Shown here in pieces: positions 3,009 to 9,792 of a DNA stretch of 33,157 nt (position 1 is its first letter; each line of letters begins with the position of its first letter). The position numbers were made by a program, and so were the translations under genes. The stretch lies in the NCBI GenBank assembly GCA_025463365.1, contig JAOBWM010000186.1, positions 1 to 33,157 of the forward strand, given 5' to 3'. The notes beneath the pieces are model-generated. The model saw only the letters and a program-made list of their open reading frames with translations. It made no database searches and was not told the DNA's origin. This DNA is from Acidimicrobiales bacterium (GTDB lineage: Bacteria > Actinomycetota > Acidimicrobiia > Acidimicrobiales > Iamiaceae).

Positions 3009-4133
3009 TCAGGTGAAGAGGACCTCGGGTGCGGAGCCCGGCTTGTACCAGACGATCTCGTGGGTGCCGAACCAGTTGCCGACGATCGGGATGTAGCCGA
3101 CACCGAACTCGGTGTTGTGGGCCGCCATGATCTCGCCGTCGCTCCACACCATGTCGGGATGGGTCTTCGACCAGAGGAACACGGTGAGGTTGCCCTTGCC
3201 AGGGAGCAGGGTGCCGTCGGCCCCGACGACCCCGACGCTGGGGATCTGATCCCAGCCCCCGTCCGTCCGGCCGTACCAGATGCTGCTCGCGCCGCCGGGC
3301 TTGAACCAGAAGATGTCGTCGGTCGCGATGGGGCTGAAGCGGCCGCCGCTCGACGGGTGGTGGGACTTGGTCGGACCTCCGCCGTCGAGCTCGAGGACGA
3401 GCGGCTGGTAGGTGCCCCCCACGGACTGCGTCGTCACCGCGAACGTGCCCGAACCGTTGCCCCGCCAGAGCTTGTCCACCACCACACCGGGTCCGTACCA
3501 GAACACGTCCGCGAGGAGGTCGCCGTTGAAGTCGCCGACGAGCGGCTTGGTGTCGGCCGGGGTGGTGACACCGTGGGTGACGTGCTGGGAGCCGGTGCCG
3601 GTGAACGACCACACGCTGCCGACGCCGCCACCAGGCTTGCTCCAGATGATGTCGTCCTTGCCATCGCGATCGTCGAGCACGACCGGGGCGTAGGTGCCGT
3701 TGATGGCCACCGGGTACGAGGTCCAGGTGGCCTTGCCTGAGGTCTTCCACAGCGAGTCGGCCCCGGAGCCCGGCGAGTACCAGAGGATGTCGTCGAGGTC
3801 GTCGCCGGTGAAGTCCCCGACGATCGGCGTGTAGGTGCCGTTCACCTTGTTGCCGAGCGACTTGGGGGTGAAGATCTTGTCGGTCGTGTCGGTCCAGAAC
3901 TGCTCGGCGCCGGCCCCGGGTGCGTACCAGAGGATGTCGTCGTAGCTGGAGCTGTTCTCGAAGTCGCCCACCACAGGCGTGTAGGTGCCCGACAACTGGG
4001 GAAGCGACGACTCGTTGTAGAACGGCGAGGGTTCCGTCCGGGGAGCGGCGCCGGCAGGCGCCGAGGTGCCCACCGTTCCTCCCACGAGGGAGAGGGCGAG
4101 CGCGATGGCGGCGAAGGTGGGGCGAGGACGCAT
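3009..4133 (-). CDS. Secreted FG-GAP/VCBS-like repeat protein
   Basis: 374 aa protein with a classic signal peptide: basic MRPRP start, hydrophobic AAIALALSLVGG, cleavage around AGA-AP near residue 30. The rest is about seven degenerate repeats of 45-50 residues, each with a core like GTYTPVVGDF then DDILWYxPG and an aromatic near LW. The Asp-rich loops resemble the calcium-binding blades of FG-GAP/VCBS beta-propellers. No catalytic motif is visible, so an extracellular binding or adhesion role is plausible but unproven. It lies 39 nt downstream of the phoD-like gene on the same strand and may be co-transcribed with it. Repeat family assignment is reasonably sure, biological role unknown. Confidence 0.8.
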   Translation of the reverse strand: MRPRPTFAAIALALSLVGGTVGTSAPAGAAPRTEPSPFYNESSLPQLSGTYTPVVGDFENSSSYDDILWYAPGAGAEQFWTDTTDKIFTPKSLGNKVNGTYTPIVGDFTGDDLDDILWYSPGSGADSLWKTSGKATWTSYPVAINGTYAPVVLDDRDGKDDIIWSKPGGGVGSVWSFTGTGSQHVTHGVTTPADTKPLVGDFNGDLLADVFWYGPGVVVDKLWRGNGSGTFAVTTQSVGGTYQPLVLELDGGGPTKSHHPSSGGRFSPIATDDIFWFKPGGASSIWYGRTDGGWDQIPSVGVVGADGTLLPGKGNLTVFLWSKTHPDMVWSDGEIMAAHNTEFGVGYIPIVGNWFGTHEIVWYKPGSAPEVLFT

Positions 4134-4172: not shown

Positions 4173-5714
4173 TCAGGCGCCGGTGGCGGCTGACTGGCGA
4201 AGGGTCGGGCTGCTCACGGCCTGGAGGCGGGAGCGGCCGCGGGGCACCTGGTAGGCGGCGGCACAGAACTCGTCGTCGCTGCGGGTGAGCACCTCGTCGA
4301 CGAACCACCACTGGCCTTCGAGGCGCTCGGCGTCGACGTCGATGAGCACGTAGCCGTGGCCGTCGAAGTCGGCCCAACGGGCATGGGGATAGGCGGCGAC
4401 GAAGCGCTGCTGGGCATGGCGCGATCCGCCGTACGCGTAGCCGAGCTTGTCGTCGAGGTTCTGCGATGTGACGCTCGCCGTCACCAACTCGACCGCGAGT
4501 GGCTCGGCGTCGCCGGCGCCGAAGGGGTCACGGTGGACCTCGCAGGCGAGGCCGACGTGGATGTCGCCGGACAGCACCACGAGGTCCTCGACCCCGGCCT
4601 CCTCGAAGCGGGCGAGGATCGCGTCGCGCTCGGCCGGGTAGCCGTCCCACTGGTCGTGGTCGACGGCCGTGCCCTCGGGGTTGCAGAGCTTCAGCTTCTT
4701 GAGGGGGGTCAGCACGTCCTCGGGGACGCCGCTGTGGAACGTGGTCGAGAGGATCGAGGGGTTGCCCCACAAGCGCCATGCCGCGGTGGACGAGGTGACC
4801 GTGTCGAGCAACCACTCGCGCTGCTGCAGGCCGAGGGCGGTGCGGGCCGGCTCGTGCATCTCGGGCCCCGGCACCGGCCGGTCCCGGCGGCTGCGCGCAT
4901 CGGTGAGGACGAGATCGGCGAGGTCGCCCAGGGCGACCGAGCGATAGACGCGGGTCGGATCACCGGCGTCGGGCCGCCGCATCGGCAGCCACTCCTCTCG
5001 GGCCTGGAAGGCGGCCGCCTTGCGGACCGACCACGGGCCGAACACGGCCTCGTCGTGGTTGTCCGCGCCGTCGCGCCAGGCGCCGTCGGCGAACTCATGG
5101 TCGTCGAGGGTTGCGATCAGCGGGATCGAGGCGCGCATCCGCAGGACTGACGGGTCGAGGCCGTACTGGCGGTACCGGGTGCGGTAGTCGTCGAGGGTGA
5201 CGCATTCGCCGAGGGGGGCGAAGGGTCGGCCGATGTCGGCCCCCGGGGTCTGCGGTGGTGGCGGGTTCTGGGCGGCCTCGTAGATGTAGTCGCCGAGGTG
5301 CAGGAGGAAGTCGAGGTCGCCGGCATCGGCTCGGTCGGCGATGCGGTCATAGGCGTTGAAGTAGCCGGCGTTGAACTTGGCGCAGGACACCATGGCGAAC
5401 CGGGCCCGGTCGACGTGGCCGGCGGGCAGCGTCTTGGTGCGCCCCACCGGCGAGCGGTGCCCGAGCGCCTCGAAGCCGTAGAAGTACGTGGCGGCGGGGT
5501 CGAGACCCGCCACGTCGACGTGCACGGTGTGATCCCGTGCCGCCTCGGCCAAGCCCGTCCCCGTGGCCACCACGTCGGCCAAGGCGGGGTCGCGCGCCAC
5601 GGTCCAGTCGACCGGGACGTCGTCGTCCTCCCCGGACACGTGGGTCCAGATCATCACGCGATCGGCGAGCGGGTCGCCGCTGGCGATCCCGTAGGAGAAG
5701 GTGTCCGCATCCAT
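4173..5714 (-). CDS. phoD: PhoD-type alkaline phosphatase/phosphodiesterase
   Basis: 513 aa metallophosphoesterase of the PhoD family. An N-terminal Ig-like PhoD_N segment begins at FSYGIASGDP (residues 6-15) and runs to about residue 97. The catalytic part shows SCAKFN around Cys111, LHLGDYIYE with Asp142, TLDDHEF with Asp204/His206, and LSGDIHVG with Asp384/His386, the expected metal ligands. Secreted PhoD proteins normally carry a Tat signal; here the protein starts directly at the PhoD_N domain and no twin-arginine signal is encoded upstream. It may therefore be cytoplasmic, or the start may be incomplete. A palindrome shared with the globin gene sits 34 nt upstream of the ATG. Substrate unknown. 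Confidence 0.88.
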   Translation of the reverse strand: MDADTFSYGIASGDPLADRVMIWTHVSGEDDDVPVDWTVARDPALADVVATGTGLAEAARDHTVHVDVAGLDPAATYFYGFEALGHRSPVGRTKTLPAGHVDRARFAMVSCAKFNAGYFNAYDRIADRADAGDLDFLLHLGDYIYEAAQNPPPPQTPGADIGRPFAPLGECVTLDDYRTRYRQYGLDPSVLRMRASIPLIATLDDHEFADGAWRDGADNHDEAVFGPWSVRKAAAFQAREEWLPMRRPDAGDPTRVYRSVALGDLADLVLTDARSRRDRPVPGPEMHEPARTALGLQQREWLLDTVTSSTAAWRLWGNPSILSTTFHSGVPEDVLTPLKKLKLCNPEGTAVDHDQWDGYPAERDAILARFEEAGVEDLVVLSGDIHVGLACEVHRDPFGAGDAEPLAVELVTASVTSQNLDDKLGYAYGGSRHAQQRFVAAYPHARWADFDGHGYVLIDVDAERLEGQWWFVDEVLTRSDDEFCAAAYQVPRGRSRLQAVSSPTLRQSAATGA

Positions 5715-5748
5715 GATCCAAGAGGACCACGGACCCGATCGGCGGACA

Positions 5749-5765
5749 TGAGCAACCGCTACTCA
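5749..5765. promoter_or_regulatory. Palindromic operator upstream of phoD-like gene
   Basis: TGAGCA-N5-TACTCA, one mismatch from a perfect inverted repeat. Its near edge is 34 nt from the phoD ATG and its centre about 43 nt upstream. The same motif with the same spacing precedes the globin gene; the shared block runs 25 nt, with ten identical bases (TGCTCATGTC, minus strand) on the gene-proximal side. Probably a common transcription-factor site. Confidence 0.6.
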
Positions 5766-5773
5766 AATCGGGG

Positions 5774-5794
5774 ACCGGGTCCCGGGACCCCGGG
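5774..5794 (-). terminator. GC-rich hairpin after globin gene
   Basis: A 14-bp perfect palindrome (GGGTCCCGGGACCC at 5777-5790) with extra G/C pairing on both sides lies downstream of the globin stop and just ahead of the phoD operator. It could stop globin transcription. There is no T tract, so termination is an inference. Confidence 0.35.
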
Positions 5795-5800
5795 CCCTTG

Positions 5801-5830
5801 CTCACCCGACCGCGGCTCACCCGACCGCGA
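5801..5830. repeat. Tandem 15-bp duplication
   Basis: Two adjacent copies of CTCACCCGACCGCG(G/A) lie in the globin-phoD intergenic region, differing only in the last base. No function evident. Confidence 0.75.
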
Positions 5831-5845
5831 CTCGGATGGCGCGAC

Positions 5846-6253
5846 TCAGATGACGGCGCCGTCCAGCATCGACTGGGTCATCAGCGCGAAGACGAGGCGC
5901 CAGGCCGCGGCGACGTCGTCGTTCCACTCGTCGCCGAGGGCGTCGGCCAGGGCATCGGTGAGCGACGGGAAGAACACCTGGTAGTGGCGGGCCGATGCCC
6001 CGGACTGCTTGTGGACCCTGCCGGCCGACGCGGCCCGCTCTCGGAACGACGGCAGGTCGGTGACGCGGGAGATCAGTTCGGAGAGCGTGGCGGTCGGGTC
6101 GGACTCAGCGGGGCGGGGGTCGAACGGCAGCGCCGGTCCGAGCTCGGGATGGGTCGCGGAGATCGTGTGCCTGACCGCGACGACCAACTGATCGAGCCCT
6201 GGCGCGACGAGCTGATGGGTGGACCGCACGAGGGCGATCTGTTCGGGGCTCAT
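5846..6253 (-). CDS. Small single-domain globin-like protein
   Basis: 135 aa. The opening MSPEQIALVRST matches the A helix of bacterial globins and flavohaemoglobin haem domains. GRVHKQSGASARHY corresponds to the F-helix region with the proximal haem ligand, His in GRVH. The C-terminal helices (LADALGDEWNDDVAAAWRLVFALM) fit G/H of that family. The middle, where the CD-corner Phe and distal E-helix residues should be, is short and Asp/Pro-rich, so the distal pocket is not recognisable. There is no reductase domain. Ligand chemistry (O2, NO) cannot be inferred. The gene sits between a LuxR regulator and a phoD-like gene and shares an operator motif with the latter; a -10-like TACGTT lies 6 nt before the ATG. 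Confidence 0.75.
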   Translation of the reverse strand: MSPEQIALVRSTHQLVAPGLDQLVVAVRHTISATHPELGPALPFDPRPAESDPTATLSELISRVTDLPSFRERAASAGRVHKQSGASARHYQVFFPSLTDALADALGDEWNDDVAAAWRLVFALMTQSMLDGAVI

Positions 6254-6259
6254 GGACGC

Positions 6260-6304
6260 AACGTACGGAGTTCGTCCCGATCCGACATGAGCAGCGATTG
6301 CTCA
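6260..6304 (-). promoter_or_regulatory. Globin promoter with palindromic operator (leaderless)
   Basis: A perfect TGAGCA-N5-TGCTCA inverted repeat spans 6288-6304. A -10-like TACGTT (6260-6265, minus strand) ends 6 nt before the ATG, so transcription would start at or next to the start codon. The palindrome is then centred near -43, the usual place for a class II activator such as a LuxR-type protein. Palindrome and spacing are seen; activation is inferred. Confidence 0.6.
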
Positions 6305-6315
6305 ATTCCTGCTGG

Positions 6316-8952
6316 TCAGACGCCCAGAGCGTGGGCCAGCTCGGCTCGGCTGGTGACGCCGAGCTTGGTGTAGGCCCGCTGCAGGTGGTTGTTCACCGTG
6401 CGGATCGACAGGAACAGCCGGTCGGAGATCTCCTTGCTGGCGATCCCCTGGGCGGCGAGGAGGGCGATCTCGCGCTCCCGGCGCGACAACGGCACGACCC
6501 CGCCGATGCGCGTGAGCGCCGGGGTGCGCGCCCCTTCGCACTCCAGCACCAGGGCGTCGGCCCTGCGGTCGAGCGTGGCCGCCGAACGTTGGTCCTCGGC
6601 TCGGCGGAACGCCTCAGCCGCCGCGATCGCTGTCTCGGCGGCGTCGATGTGGGCGCCCAGCTCGACCCACCGGTCGACCATGGCGGCGAGCTCGTCGCCC
6701 CGTCCGCTTGCGAGTGCCGCCGCCTGCGCCGCCCGCGCGTCGATGAGGCTGCTGTCGGTGTCCGCGGCCAGGTCGGCCAGGCGGCCCTCGAGGCCCGTGG
6801 CCCCCAGGCGCGTGGCGTCGTGCAGCAGCCAGGAGGCCGACACCCGGTGGCCGGTCTCCAAGGCGCGGTCCGCGCCGTCGAGCAGCAGCTTCTTCGCCGC
6901 GATCGGGTCGCCGTTGGCCTGCTCGACCCAAGCTGCCGCCGCGATCTGCTCCGGGAACACGAAGTCGAACACGGGCAGCGCGTCTCGCTGGGTGAGCACG
7001 GCACGGGCCTCGGGGCCGTCGCCGAGGAGCGCGTGGCCCATGGCCAAGCCCGAGAGCCCGAGGCGGAGCGGCCCGTCGAAGTGGCTGGCGCGAGCGAGCG
7101 CCGTCCCCTCCAGGTACCACCGGACCGCCGAGCGGGGGTGCCCGCGCAGGAGCTCGATCCGGCCGAGGTCGAGGATGAACCAGATCCGGGCGATCGGTGC
7201 CGATTCGTCCGACGTCGCCTCGTAGCCCGCGGTCGCGAGGGCGTTGGCCTCGTCGAAGCGGCCGGCGTCCATGAGGGCGAAGATCTGGGAGATCAGGTGA
7301 CTGCCGGGGTGGGCGAGGGCGAGCGGCTCGGTCAGGGCGAGGTGTTCGGAGAAGGCACGCTCGGCCACCTCGATCGCCCGGCTCGTGTGGCCCATCAAGG
7401 CCAGCGACGGAGCCTCCGACAGGGCCCGGATCACGCGGTCACGAGGGTCGGTGAGCTGGCTTCCGTCGCCCAGGTCCTCGAACAGGGCGAGGGCAGCGAG
7501 CGGGTTGCCGGAGAACAGCTGGATCGACGCCTCATCCGCGATCATCTCGGGCATCTCCTTCGGGCCCACGCGGGGGCGGGCGGCGAAGTTGACCGCCAGG
7601 GCCCCGTCGGGATCGCAGTGCCCCCAGTGGAGGTTCTTGCAGCGCATCACCGTGACCTGCAGCACCTGATCCGGGTCGAGCCCGGACAAGGCGTCGACGG
7701 CGGCGAGGACCTGGCCGGCCTCGTCGAACGAGCCCAGCTCGTACAGGGCCTCGCCGAGCAGCAGGCCACCCTGGAAGCTCGGCGCCACCGTGTGGGCGGC
7801 GCGGGCCAAGCGCTCGGCCTGGCGGTGGTCGTTGGCGTGGCGGGCCACCATCGCCCCGCGGAGCAGGAGCTCCGGATCAGCGTGGCCGTCGGCGTCGAGC
7901 CGCCACGTCGCGATCCGCAGGGCATCGGCTCGTCGCAGGGCGCCGTGAGCCTCGATACGGGCGATGTGCTCACGCAGGATCCGGCGAGATCGCAGGCGGG
8001 GCAGCGCCGCCCGCAATGCCTCGGCGTACAGCGGGTGGGCGAGGGAGACGAACTGGCGCCGGCGATCGATCGTGACCTGCAGGAGCCCGGCCTCCTCGAG
8101 GTCCTCGAGGAGGGTCGACGATGCGAGCTGTTCGAGGTCGGTCGCCCCGACGGGCTCGCAGAGCGCGAGGAGGTCGAGCACGCCCCGGGAGGTGTCGTCG
8201 AGGGCACCGATGCGGTCGGCGACGAGCTCGACGAGGCGGCGGCTGCCGGTGGGGAGCTGCTCGGCCCGCCACTCACCATCGACCTCCTGCAATGCGCCGG
8301 TGCCGATGGCCTCCAACACGAGCTCGCGCAGGAACAGCGCGTTCCCCTGGCTGGCCTGCCACATCCGGTCGGTGACATCGGCGGCGACCGGCCCGCCGAG
8401 GGCGAGGTGCAGCACGGTGGCGACGTCGTCGGGCCCGAGAGCGCCGAGGTCGACGCGGGTGACGGTGCCGTTGCGCCAGAGCGCCGACACGGCATCGGGC
8501 ACGGGTTCGCCCTCGCGGATCGTGCCGATGAGGAAGGCGAGACCGGCGGCCAGCAGTTGGCTGACGAGGGTCGCCGACGTGACGTCGAGGAGGTGGACGT
8601 CGTCGACCGACAAGATCAGCGGTTTGCCGCCGAGCCGGGATTCGAGATCCTCTCGGACGTGATCGAACAGCCGCACGGGGTCGAACGCCAGGCCGCTCGC
8701 GAGGTCCGGCGGGATGAGGTGGGCCAGGGCGCCGAGGGGGAGTTGCGCCGCCGTGCGGCTCGCCACCGCCACGGCCGTGGTGTGACCCAGCCGCTCGGCC
8801 ACCGTTCGGCACTCCTCGGCCAACCGTGTCTTGCCGACGCCGGCCGGGCCGTGCACGAGGAACCCGGCCGAGGGCCCGGCCAGGGCGCGTTCGAACGCTT
8901 CGAGATCCTCGTGTCGCCCCACGATGGGCCAGCGATCCAGCGCGCTCGTCAT
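6316..8952 (-). CDS. Large ATP-binding LuxR-family regulator (MalT/LAL type)
   Basis: 878 aa. An N-terminal AAA/NTPase module starts at IVGRHEDLEAFERAL, with Walker A GPAGVGKT at residues 35-42 and a Walker B-like LILSVDDVHLLD. A long alpha-helical middle resembles TPR-like signal-integration repeats. The last about 65 residues form a LuxR helix-turn-helix: PLSRREREIALLAAQGIASK, then ISDRLFLSIRTVNNHL. Such proteins are typically ATP- and ligand-dependent activators. The ATG is preceded by a purine-rich GGAGGGGAG stretch. It lies 62 nt upstream of the globin ATG, and the palindromic operator occupies that gap, making this the first candidate for the factor that binds it. Ligand unknown. Confidence 0.9.
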   Translation of the reverse strand: MTSALDRWPIVGRHEDLEAFERALAGPSAGFLVHGPAGVGKTRLAEECRTVAERLGHTTAVAVASRTAAQLPLGALAHLIPPDLASGLAFDPVRLFDHVREDLESRLGGKPLILSVDDVHLLDVTSATLVSQLLAAGLAFLIGTIREGEPVPDAVSALWRNGTVTRVDLGALGPDDVATVLHLALGGPVAADVTDRMWQASQGNALFLRELVLEAIGTGALQEVDGEWRAEQLPTGSRRLVELVADRIGALDDTSRGVLDLLALCEPVGATDLEQLASSTLLEDLEEAGLLQVTIDRRRQFVSLAHPLYAEALRAALPRLRSRRILREHIARIEAHGALRRADALRIATWRLDADGHADPELLLRGAMVARHANDHRQAERLARAAHTVAPSFQGGLLLGEALYELGSFDEAGQVLAAVDALSGLDPDQVLQVTVMRCKNLHWGHCDPDGALAVNFAARPRVGPKEMPEMIADEASIQLFSGNPLAALALFEDLGDGSQLTDPRDRVIRALSEAPSLALMGHTSRAIEVAERAFSEHLALTEPLALAHPGSHLISQIFALMDAGRFDEANALATAGYEATSDESAPIARIWFILDLGRIELLRGHPRSAVRWYLEGTALARASHFDGPLRLGLSGLAMGHALLGDGPEARAVLTQRDALPVFDFVFPEQIAAAAWVEQANGDPIAAKKLLLDGADRALETGHRVSASWLLHDATRLGATGLEGRLADLAADTDSSLIDARAAQAAALASGRGDELAAMVDRWVELGAHIDAAETAIAAAEAFRRAEDQRSAATLDRRADALVLECEGARTPALTRIGGVVPLSRREREIALLAAQGIASKEISDRLFLSIRTVNNHLQRAYTKLGVTSRAELAHALGV

Positions 8953-9060
8953 GCGATTGCCCGCTCCCCTCCGTCTTGCCGGTCGGCCGCCAGGGTACGG
9001 CCCCGATGAGTGTCGGGCGAAGGCACCGTCTCCACCATGTCGCGCCGAGAGAAGGTCACC

Positions 9061-9792
9061 ATGACATTGCCCAAGGTCGTCACCCGAGACGAGTGGCTGG
9101 TTGCCCGCAAGGAGCTGCTGGCCGAGGAGAAGGAGCTGACCCGGGTGCGCGATGCACTCAACGCCGAACGTCGGCGCCTCCCGATGGTCCGCGTCACCGA
9201 GCCCTACGAGTTCGTCGGGCCGGCCGGGACCGCGACCCTGCTCGACCTGTTCGAAGGCCGCCACCAGTTGATCGTGCGCCACTTCATGTTCGATCCGTCG
9301 TGGGAGGACGGGTGTCCCAGCTGCACGGCCGGCGCCGACGAGCTGTGTGACGGCCTCCTGGACCACCTGCACACGCGGGACACGTCGGTGGCTGTGGTGT
9401 CGCGAGCGCCCATCGGGAAGATCGAGCGTTACCGGGCCGAGCGGGGCTGGACCTTCCCCTGGTACTCCTCGTTCGGCAGCCGCTTCAACCACGACTTCGG
9501 CGTCACCGTCGACGACTCGGTTGAGCCGGCGGCCTACAACTACCGCACGCGCGCCGAGTTCGAGGCGGGCGGCGCCCAGCTGGCCGACGGTGAGTACCCA
9601 GGTCAGAGCTGTTTCGTGCGGGTCGGCGACGACGTGTTCCACACGTACTCGAACTACGCCCGCGGCGCCGAGATGACCGGCGGGTCCTACTACTACCTGG
9701 ACCTCACCGTGCTCGGTCGCCAGGAGGACTGGGAGGAGCCGAAGGGCCGCGCCGACGACGTGCGCGGCGCCCGGCCCGACTTCTCGTCCTGA
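9061..9792 (+). CDS. DUF899 thioredoxin-like family protein
   Basis: 243 aa from the chosen ATG, which follows GAGAAGG with a 5-nt gap and yields the typical MTLPKVVTRDEWLVARK opening of DUF899 proteins; in-frame starts at 9010 (GTG) and 9037 (ATG) lack such a site. DUF899 proteins have a thioredoxin-like fold of unknown activity. Visible here are RHFMFDPSWEDGCPSC with a CxxC pair, and later FPWYSSFGSRFNHDF and YNYR, all characteristic of the family. It is divergent from the LuxR-type regulator with a 108-nt gap, so the two may share control. A redox role is suggested by the fold and CPSC motif but is not established. Confidence 0.85.
   Translation: MTLPKVVTRDEWLVARKELLAEEKELTRVRDALNAERRRLPMVRVTEPYEFVGPAGTATLLDLFEGRHQLIVRHFMFDPSWEDGCPSCTAGADELCDGLLDHLHTRDTSVAVVSRAPIGKIERYRAERGWTFPWYSSFGSRFNHDFGVTVDDSVEPAAYNYRTRAEFEAGGAQLADGEYPGQSCFVRVGDDVFHTYSNYARGAEMTGGSYYYLDLTVLGRQEDWEEPKGRADDVRGARPDFSS

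Follow-up and report, generated by a model that had tools for sequence, protein, structure and literature searches.

Genes and palindromes at the locus

The window, i.e., the whole stretch of DNA that was analyzed, comprises 33,157 nt of an Acidimicrobiales contig (JAOBWM010000186.1). The part of interest reads on the minus strand from the gene for a LAL regulator through a globin gene and a phoD-like gene to a gene for an FG-GAP repeat protein, with one palindrome ahead of the globin gene and another ahead of phoD. The features are as follows.

6316 to 8952, minus strand: LAL regulator with an AAA_16 ATPase (Walker A GPAGVGKT), a TPR-rich middle, a C-terminal LuxR/GerE HTH, and the recognition helix RTVNNHLQ
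6288 to 6304, minus strand: predicted operator 1, TGAGCAATCGCTGCTCA as read on the minus strand, 11 nt beyond the LAL stop codon, with the globin ATG 34 nt on
6260 to 6265, minus strand: −10-like hexamer of the globin gene, TACGTT, at −12 to −7 of the ATG, a perfect fit to the composite promoter pattern (predicted leaderless)
5846 to 6253, minus strand: single-domain globin, 135 aa (Pfam Globin, E = 1.1e-7), proximal-type His H81 retained
5749 to 5765, minus strand: predicted operator 2, TGAGTAGCGGTTGCTCA as read on the minus strand, with the phoD ATG 34 nt on
5721 to 5726, minus strand: candidate −10 of phoD, TCCTCT, at −12 to −7, with the A at −11 missing
4173 to 5714, minus strand: PhoD-like phosphatase, 513 aa (Pfam PhoD 6e-89, PhoD_N 5e-28)
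3009 to 4133, minus strand: FG-GAP repeat protein, starting ∼40 nt past the phoD stop codon

The gene for the FG-GAP repeat protein probably lies within the phoD transcript. The LAL carries an AAA_16 domain (E = 1.7e-11) and, as expected of its class, a LuxR/GerE HTH at the C terminus (GerE, E = 1.6e-16). The GxxGxGK(T/S) and DD motifs (Walker A/B), which mark an ATPase, are invariant in nine aligned orthologues. Read from ATG 8952, the protein has 878 aa, within the ∼850 to 1000 aa of the class, and its orthologues have 843 to 909 aa. Its score against the NCBIfam AbsR2 equivalog is 209.8 bits, compared with a curated cut-off of 850, so the protein is related to AbsR2 and was not filed as such. 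The longer reading frame from GTG 9642 (1108 aa) was rejected because its codons 1 to 230 lie antisense to a DUF899 gene, which leaves ATG 8952 as the probable true start. The DUF899 gene (9010 to 9792, plus strand) is divergent from the LAL, and the longest mechanical LAL ORF is a mis-started overlap with it.

The letters at 6288 to 6304 (TGAGCAGCGATTGCTCA) take the form TGAGCA-N5-TGCTCA, and those at 5749 to 5765 (TGAGCAACCGCTACTCA) take the form TGAGCA-N5-TACTCA. The first-pass annotation had placed the two palindromes at an identical distance from their start codons, and both the positions and the 34-nt gap were confirmed. Measured from the palindrome center to the A of the ATG (6253 for the globin gene and 5714 for phoD, both on the minus strand), the distance is 43 nt at both, in agreement with the claim of a center near −43.

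The palindrome in related genomes

A search for the class TGAGYA-N5-TRCTCA, which allows only the C/T variation that distinguishes the window's two sites, gives eight sites in the 4.31-Mb genome, compared with zero for the reversed control pattern (Poisson P(≥8 | 0.45) ∼3e-8). Most of the 397 Acidimicrobiales genomes contain ∼0 to 1 site, like the control, and a few contain 6 to 12 (12 in G003, 10 in G279, 9 in G010, and 6 each in G027, G153, and G347). Sites with two mismatches (165, compared with 204 for the control) are noise and were uninformative. In G010 and G015, the operator likewise stands at exactly 43 ahead of phoD orthologues that are 69% identical, which makes PhoD a target in three related genomes; the more distant PhoD homologues (37 to 47% identity) did not coincide with the listed sites.

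Over 91 sites, the core reads TGAGYA-RCSGY-TRCTCA. A match of the flanks had also been claimed. The letters ATGTC are indeed common to the window's two sites, but they are weakly conserved over the 91 sites and lie outside the motif; a TGTC flank was likewise rejected as part of the motif, since it shows no conservation across the same sites. An abundant motif, sites unrelated to gene starts, or a lack of conservation in relatives had been named beforehand as outcomes that would speak against shared control, and genome scans of the order found none of them. Judged by sequence, the palindromes are real operators.

Promoter geometry

The geometry was analyzed in the DNA around the sites of motif-bearing genomes through a tally of start codons for each distance from the operator center. 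In set A, which contains the two window sites that prompted the test, an ATG stands at offset 43 in 21 of the 96 oriented sites, where ∼1 is expected (binomial P ∼8e-22). Set B is independent, was drawn from genomes chosen later, and does not contain the two window sites; here, nine starts lie at 43/44, compared with ∼2 expected. The raw offset counts of both sets were made without a gene caller. Across the motif-bearing genomes, the distance from operator center to ATG is 43 nt in 24 cases and 44 nt in 11 (∼1 expected per offset), a tally that leans toward these values since gene starts in the relatives come from a simple purpose-made caller whose second version gives 43/44 starts a bonus. 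The phased spacing recurs in dozens of unrelated genes.

A −10 element, NANNNT, is found at center +31. At the 24 sites with a spacing of 43, A occupies +32 in 79% and T occupies +36 in 96%, which correspond to −11 and −7 of the −10 hexamer. Since these are the key −10 bases, the start site is predicted at the A of the ATG, and the hexamer thus spans −12 to −7 relative to the start codon, as in leaderless promoters. With the start site predicted from the −10 and ATG phase, the operator center would lie near −42 with a fixed −10 phase, as at class II promoters. Target mRNAs should then start at the ATG itself, in the geometry of a class II activator, and the constant 34 nt would reflect leaderless transcription, in which the ATG doubles as the start site and the operator stands at about −43.

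Some targets have a start codon 60 to 180 nt off. In these, NANNNT occurs at ∼+30/31 in 20 of 51 cases, compared with 5 of 75 gene-less control sides, which is consistent with the same promoter followed by a leader, and a Shine-Dalgarno-like stretch is often present. The −10 of phoD is non-canonical, and its GTCCTCT/GTCCCCT stretch is kept in the two orthologous phoD promoters. A −35 consensus was not seen at the operator-bearing promoters. A composite promoter search of the window's own genome with three mismatches gave no clear leaderless members beyond the known sites and one possible extra member (C128 681-734, GTG start).

Leaderless mRNAs are abundant in Mycobacterium tuberculosis, with TANNNT and without a −35 consensus (PMC3898074). 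The promoters described here resemble these in the hexamer 7 to 12 nt upstream of a start site that is also the start codon, in the C at −1, and in the absence of a −35 consensus (PMC3898074). They differ in that an operator is phased on the promoter, so that the leaderless genes would form a regulon. A second point of comparison is the LuxR/TraR-type quorum regulators, which bind lux boxes centered at −42.5. The system here would share with them a GerE HTH dimer, a palindrome abutting the target −35, and class II geometry, and it differs in its 17-bp odd palindrome of other sequence, in an ATPase sensor that replaces the autoinducer domain, and in its leaderless targets.

The same geometry bears on whether the site could instead be the operator of a repressor that blocks the −35 region from about −43. 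The site does overlap the −35 position, and the Streptomyces coelicolor LAL SCO6993 has been reported as a self-binding repressor (PMC9628970). However, a repressor would be free to bind at any position over the promoter, whereas the fixed 43/44-nt phase to the −10 and the absent −35 are marks of class II activation; leaderless actinobacterial promoters often have no −35 anyway (PMC3898074). We consider a repressor unlikely and favor an activator site.

The LAL regulator as the probable binding protein

The gene that was screened systematically for co-occurrence with the motif was the LAL gene. Orthologues (E ≤ 1e-100) are found in 20 of the 397 genomes and are present in the motif-rich ones. 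At least two sites occur in 14 of the 20 genomes with a LAL orthologue and in 35 of the 377 others (Fisher P = 7e-10, with kinship ignored). Operators lie ∼6 to 40 nt beyond the 3′ end of the LAL in nine loci and 5′ of it in many, and they bracket it on both sides in G003, G051, G135, G153, and G209. A consensus site is missing from the region 5′ of the window's LAL, no site lies within 600 nt of the LAL in G015, G021 (C142 copy), G008, G018, and G027, and no sites were found in G013, G096, G143, G159, and G162, which have moderately similar LALs.

Fourteen motif-bearing genomes have LALs with the recognition helix RTVxNHLQ, and SHL, THL, NHLG, or NHLS prevail in motif-poor ones. As a strict rule this was rejected: G006 has an NHLQ LAL and zero sites, G027 has sites together with NHLA LALs, and one G347 copy (C28) is also NHLA. 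Tandem LAL gene pairs with the NHLA variant helix are present at L286 (G027 C17) and on G008 C92. A helix scan of named genomes returned LALs from Streptomyces, Pseudonocardia, Actinospica, Dactylosporangium, Micromonospora, and others; the exact palindrome stands near the LAL in several loci of the first four genera and near none of the Micromonospora LALs in the loci examined. The LAL locus of G003, a relative from the same genus, is also present in Aquihabitans sp. G128. At L212, L223, L229, L243, L266, and L282, which come from Streptomyces, Pseudonocardia, Dactylosporangium, and an Acidimicrobiaceae MAG, an exact TGAGTA/TGAGCA-N5-TACTCA lies ∼80 to 330 nt upstream of the LAL genes.

From these sequence patterns, the LAL at 6316 to 8952 is probably the protein that binds the operator and activates from it. 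A regulator of another kind, e.g., TetR-, GntR-, or CRP-type and encoded elsewhere, could bind the sites with the LAL merely a conserved target, given that 17-bp odd palindromes fit several families, that sites adjoin the LAL as they do any target, and that some LAL orthologues have no adjacent site. That explanation is quite unlikely in our estimation, because in several families sites occur both 5′ and 3′ of the LAL, genomes of the order that have the LAL tend to be those rich in the motif, LALs of distant actinobacterial orders also have the motif next to them, and the residues of the recognition helix co-vary with the presence of the motif.

The position of nine sites just 3′ of a LAL stop codon, together with a possible 6-bp stem, would also suit an RNA hairpin (a terminator of the LAL or an mRNA element) whose match to the start codon is incidental. 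A T-tract is absent and no terminator was called, on which grounds this reading was rejected. In addition, conservation concerns the identity of the bases and not compensatory pairing, CA and TA half sites mix freely, and most sites are distant from LAL 3′ ends and are phased to the −10 and the ATG; a leaderless mRNA would moreover leave the operator itself outside the transcript. A hairpin is thus very improbable. Coincidence, or an origin of the two upstream regions as local duplicate copies, has next to no probability: the flank TGCTCATGTC is common to both, but beyond it the two intergenic regions are unrelated, six further sites lie elsewhere in the genome, and the operator is kept in the orthologous phoD promoters, so that the genome counts, the relatives' sites, and the conserved phoD promoters already refute it.

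Predicted targets of the operator

The operators of the window's own genome precede genes for the globin, PhoD, a DUF4214/PD40 protein, a large Calx-beta/cadherin-like surface protein, a collagen-like protein, a small lipoprotein, a 163-aa PH-like protein, and a small protein that starts with MGLFK. In relatives, the targets include LPxTG-like surface proteins, lipoproteins, an Rce1-like protease, and others. Among leaderless targets, 17 of 31 have an N-terminal hydrophobic segment, compared with 64 of 324 in the background (P = 5e-5). The first-pass annotation had proposed one regulator, which it did not name, for the globin and PhoD as a pair. The shared operator supports the common regulator, but the pair is not special: with eight sites that mostly serve exported or envelope proteins and small conserved proteins, globin and PhoD are two members of a wider set.

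Two of the small families are unannotated. The first (MGLFKxxKDMKxMVHEAP..., L045:416-850 and relatives, alignment A2) mostly has the operator ∼75 to 91 nt upstream of the start codon, and among the 61 genomes searched, its close homologues occur only in those with both the LAL and the operator. Structure prediction gives a small helical bundle with low confidence in the N-terminal half. The second, of 163 aa (L046:4434-4925, minus strand, and relatives, alignment A3), is recurrently preceded by the operator and is predicted to be PH-like (pLDDT 76; best Foldseek match 5e-4, to a PH-domain protein).

The globin and its link to the LAL

The globin matches its family above the cut-off and has the proximal His, as a single-domain globin should; H81 is invariant across seven aligned homologues, one row of which is partly out of frame. 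The Pfam Globin match and the RHxxYGV motif with a proximal-type His are shared with single-domain and flavohemoglobin-type globins, and the difference from known single-domain globins is that the gene here adjoins or overlaps the gene for a LAL regulator. Homologues are few among 60 relatives and stand beside the LAL in G018, G008, and G035, to which a profile search adds G328. In all, five genomes have a globin gene next to the LAL gene, and the two genes overlap in two of them: in G018 and G008, the letters GTGA combine the GTG of the globin with the stop codon of the LAL. The G008 locus (L111:60-4515, on C14) has an operator, a lipoprotein, an apparently frameshifted globin-like frame, a LAL, and a second globin in a row, with stop and start codons that overlap. 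The LAL-globin gap of G328 contains TGGGTAGCCGTTGCTCA, with one mismatch, 20 nt past the LAL and followed by a correctly spaced CACCAT −10, which is the layout of the window. In G051 and G255, which belong to the same genus, a TPR protein rather than a globin lies downstream of the LAL, with an operator in the gap (L192:5785-6417 and L161:2273-2929).

The adjacency in five genomes suggests an output or feedback role for the predicted heme globin, i.e., a partner or feedback output of the LAL switch. Neither a globin-LAL pairing nor a published consensus for such an operator was found in the literature searched, with subscription journals mostly outside its scope.

Proposed mechanism

Taken together, the motif enrichment, the 43/44-nt geometry, the −10 element, the co-occurrence with and bracketing of the LAL, and the content of the regulon support the assignment of the operator to the LAL. 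As a whole, the explanation that we consider best, and probable on this genomic evidence, is that the palindrome is an operator of the LAL, centered ∼43 nt upstream, from which RNA polymerase would be recruited to the −10. A dimer of the C-terminal GerE HTH would bind TGAGYA-RCSGY-TRCTCA ∼43 nt upstream of the start site, over the −35 position, and the bound LAL would direct RNA polymerase to NANNNT, with transcription predicted to start at the A of the ATG or, in leadered targets, ∼40 nt upstream of the start codon. The ATPase/TPR part of the LAL may sense a signal. The globin would be an output or feedback partner, with PhoD and the small conserved and secreted proteins as other putative outputs.

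A more specific reading, a globin-coupled LAL switch, is tentative, and we lean against its parts holding jointly. In it, the globin would feed a heme-based signal (O2, NO, or redox) into the ATPase regulator; its place under the regulator's own operator would provide feedback, while the switch would drive leaderless genes for envelope proteins and a phosphatase as its regulon; and the TGAGTA-N5-TACTCA/RTVxNHLQ code would be used by LALs throughout Actinomycetota, Streptomyces among them.

Actinomycetes contain many LAL regulators, which often control metabolite clusters and whose binding sites are poorly defined. The present analysis offers a precise predicted operator with a promoter phase, a likely regulator, and targets, each of which can be tested in Aquihabitans sp. 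G128 and in several strains of Streptomyces. It further points to a regulon built from leaderless promoters and to a link between a globin gene and a regulator of the STAND type. The S. coelicolor LALs SCO6993, SCO0877, and SCO7173, which are MalT-like STAND ATPases, share the architecture of an AAA_16 domain with Walker motifs, a middle rich in TPRs, and a GerE HTH. SCO6993 was reported to target itself, and its authors could predict no consensus (PMC9628970). Its footprints are unlike TGAGYA-N5-TRCTCA (PMC9628970), whereas the operator described here is precise, genome-wide, and phased, as determined computationally. In contrast to the S. coelicolor LALs, the targets here are mostly envelope genes and not an antibiotic cluster. 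SCO0877 and SCO7173 modulate phosphate-starvation genes (PMC3282765), which recalls the phoD gene at this locus.
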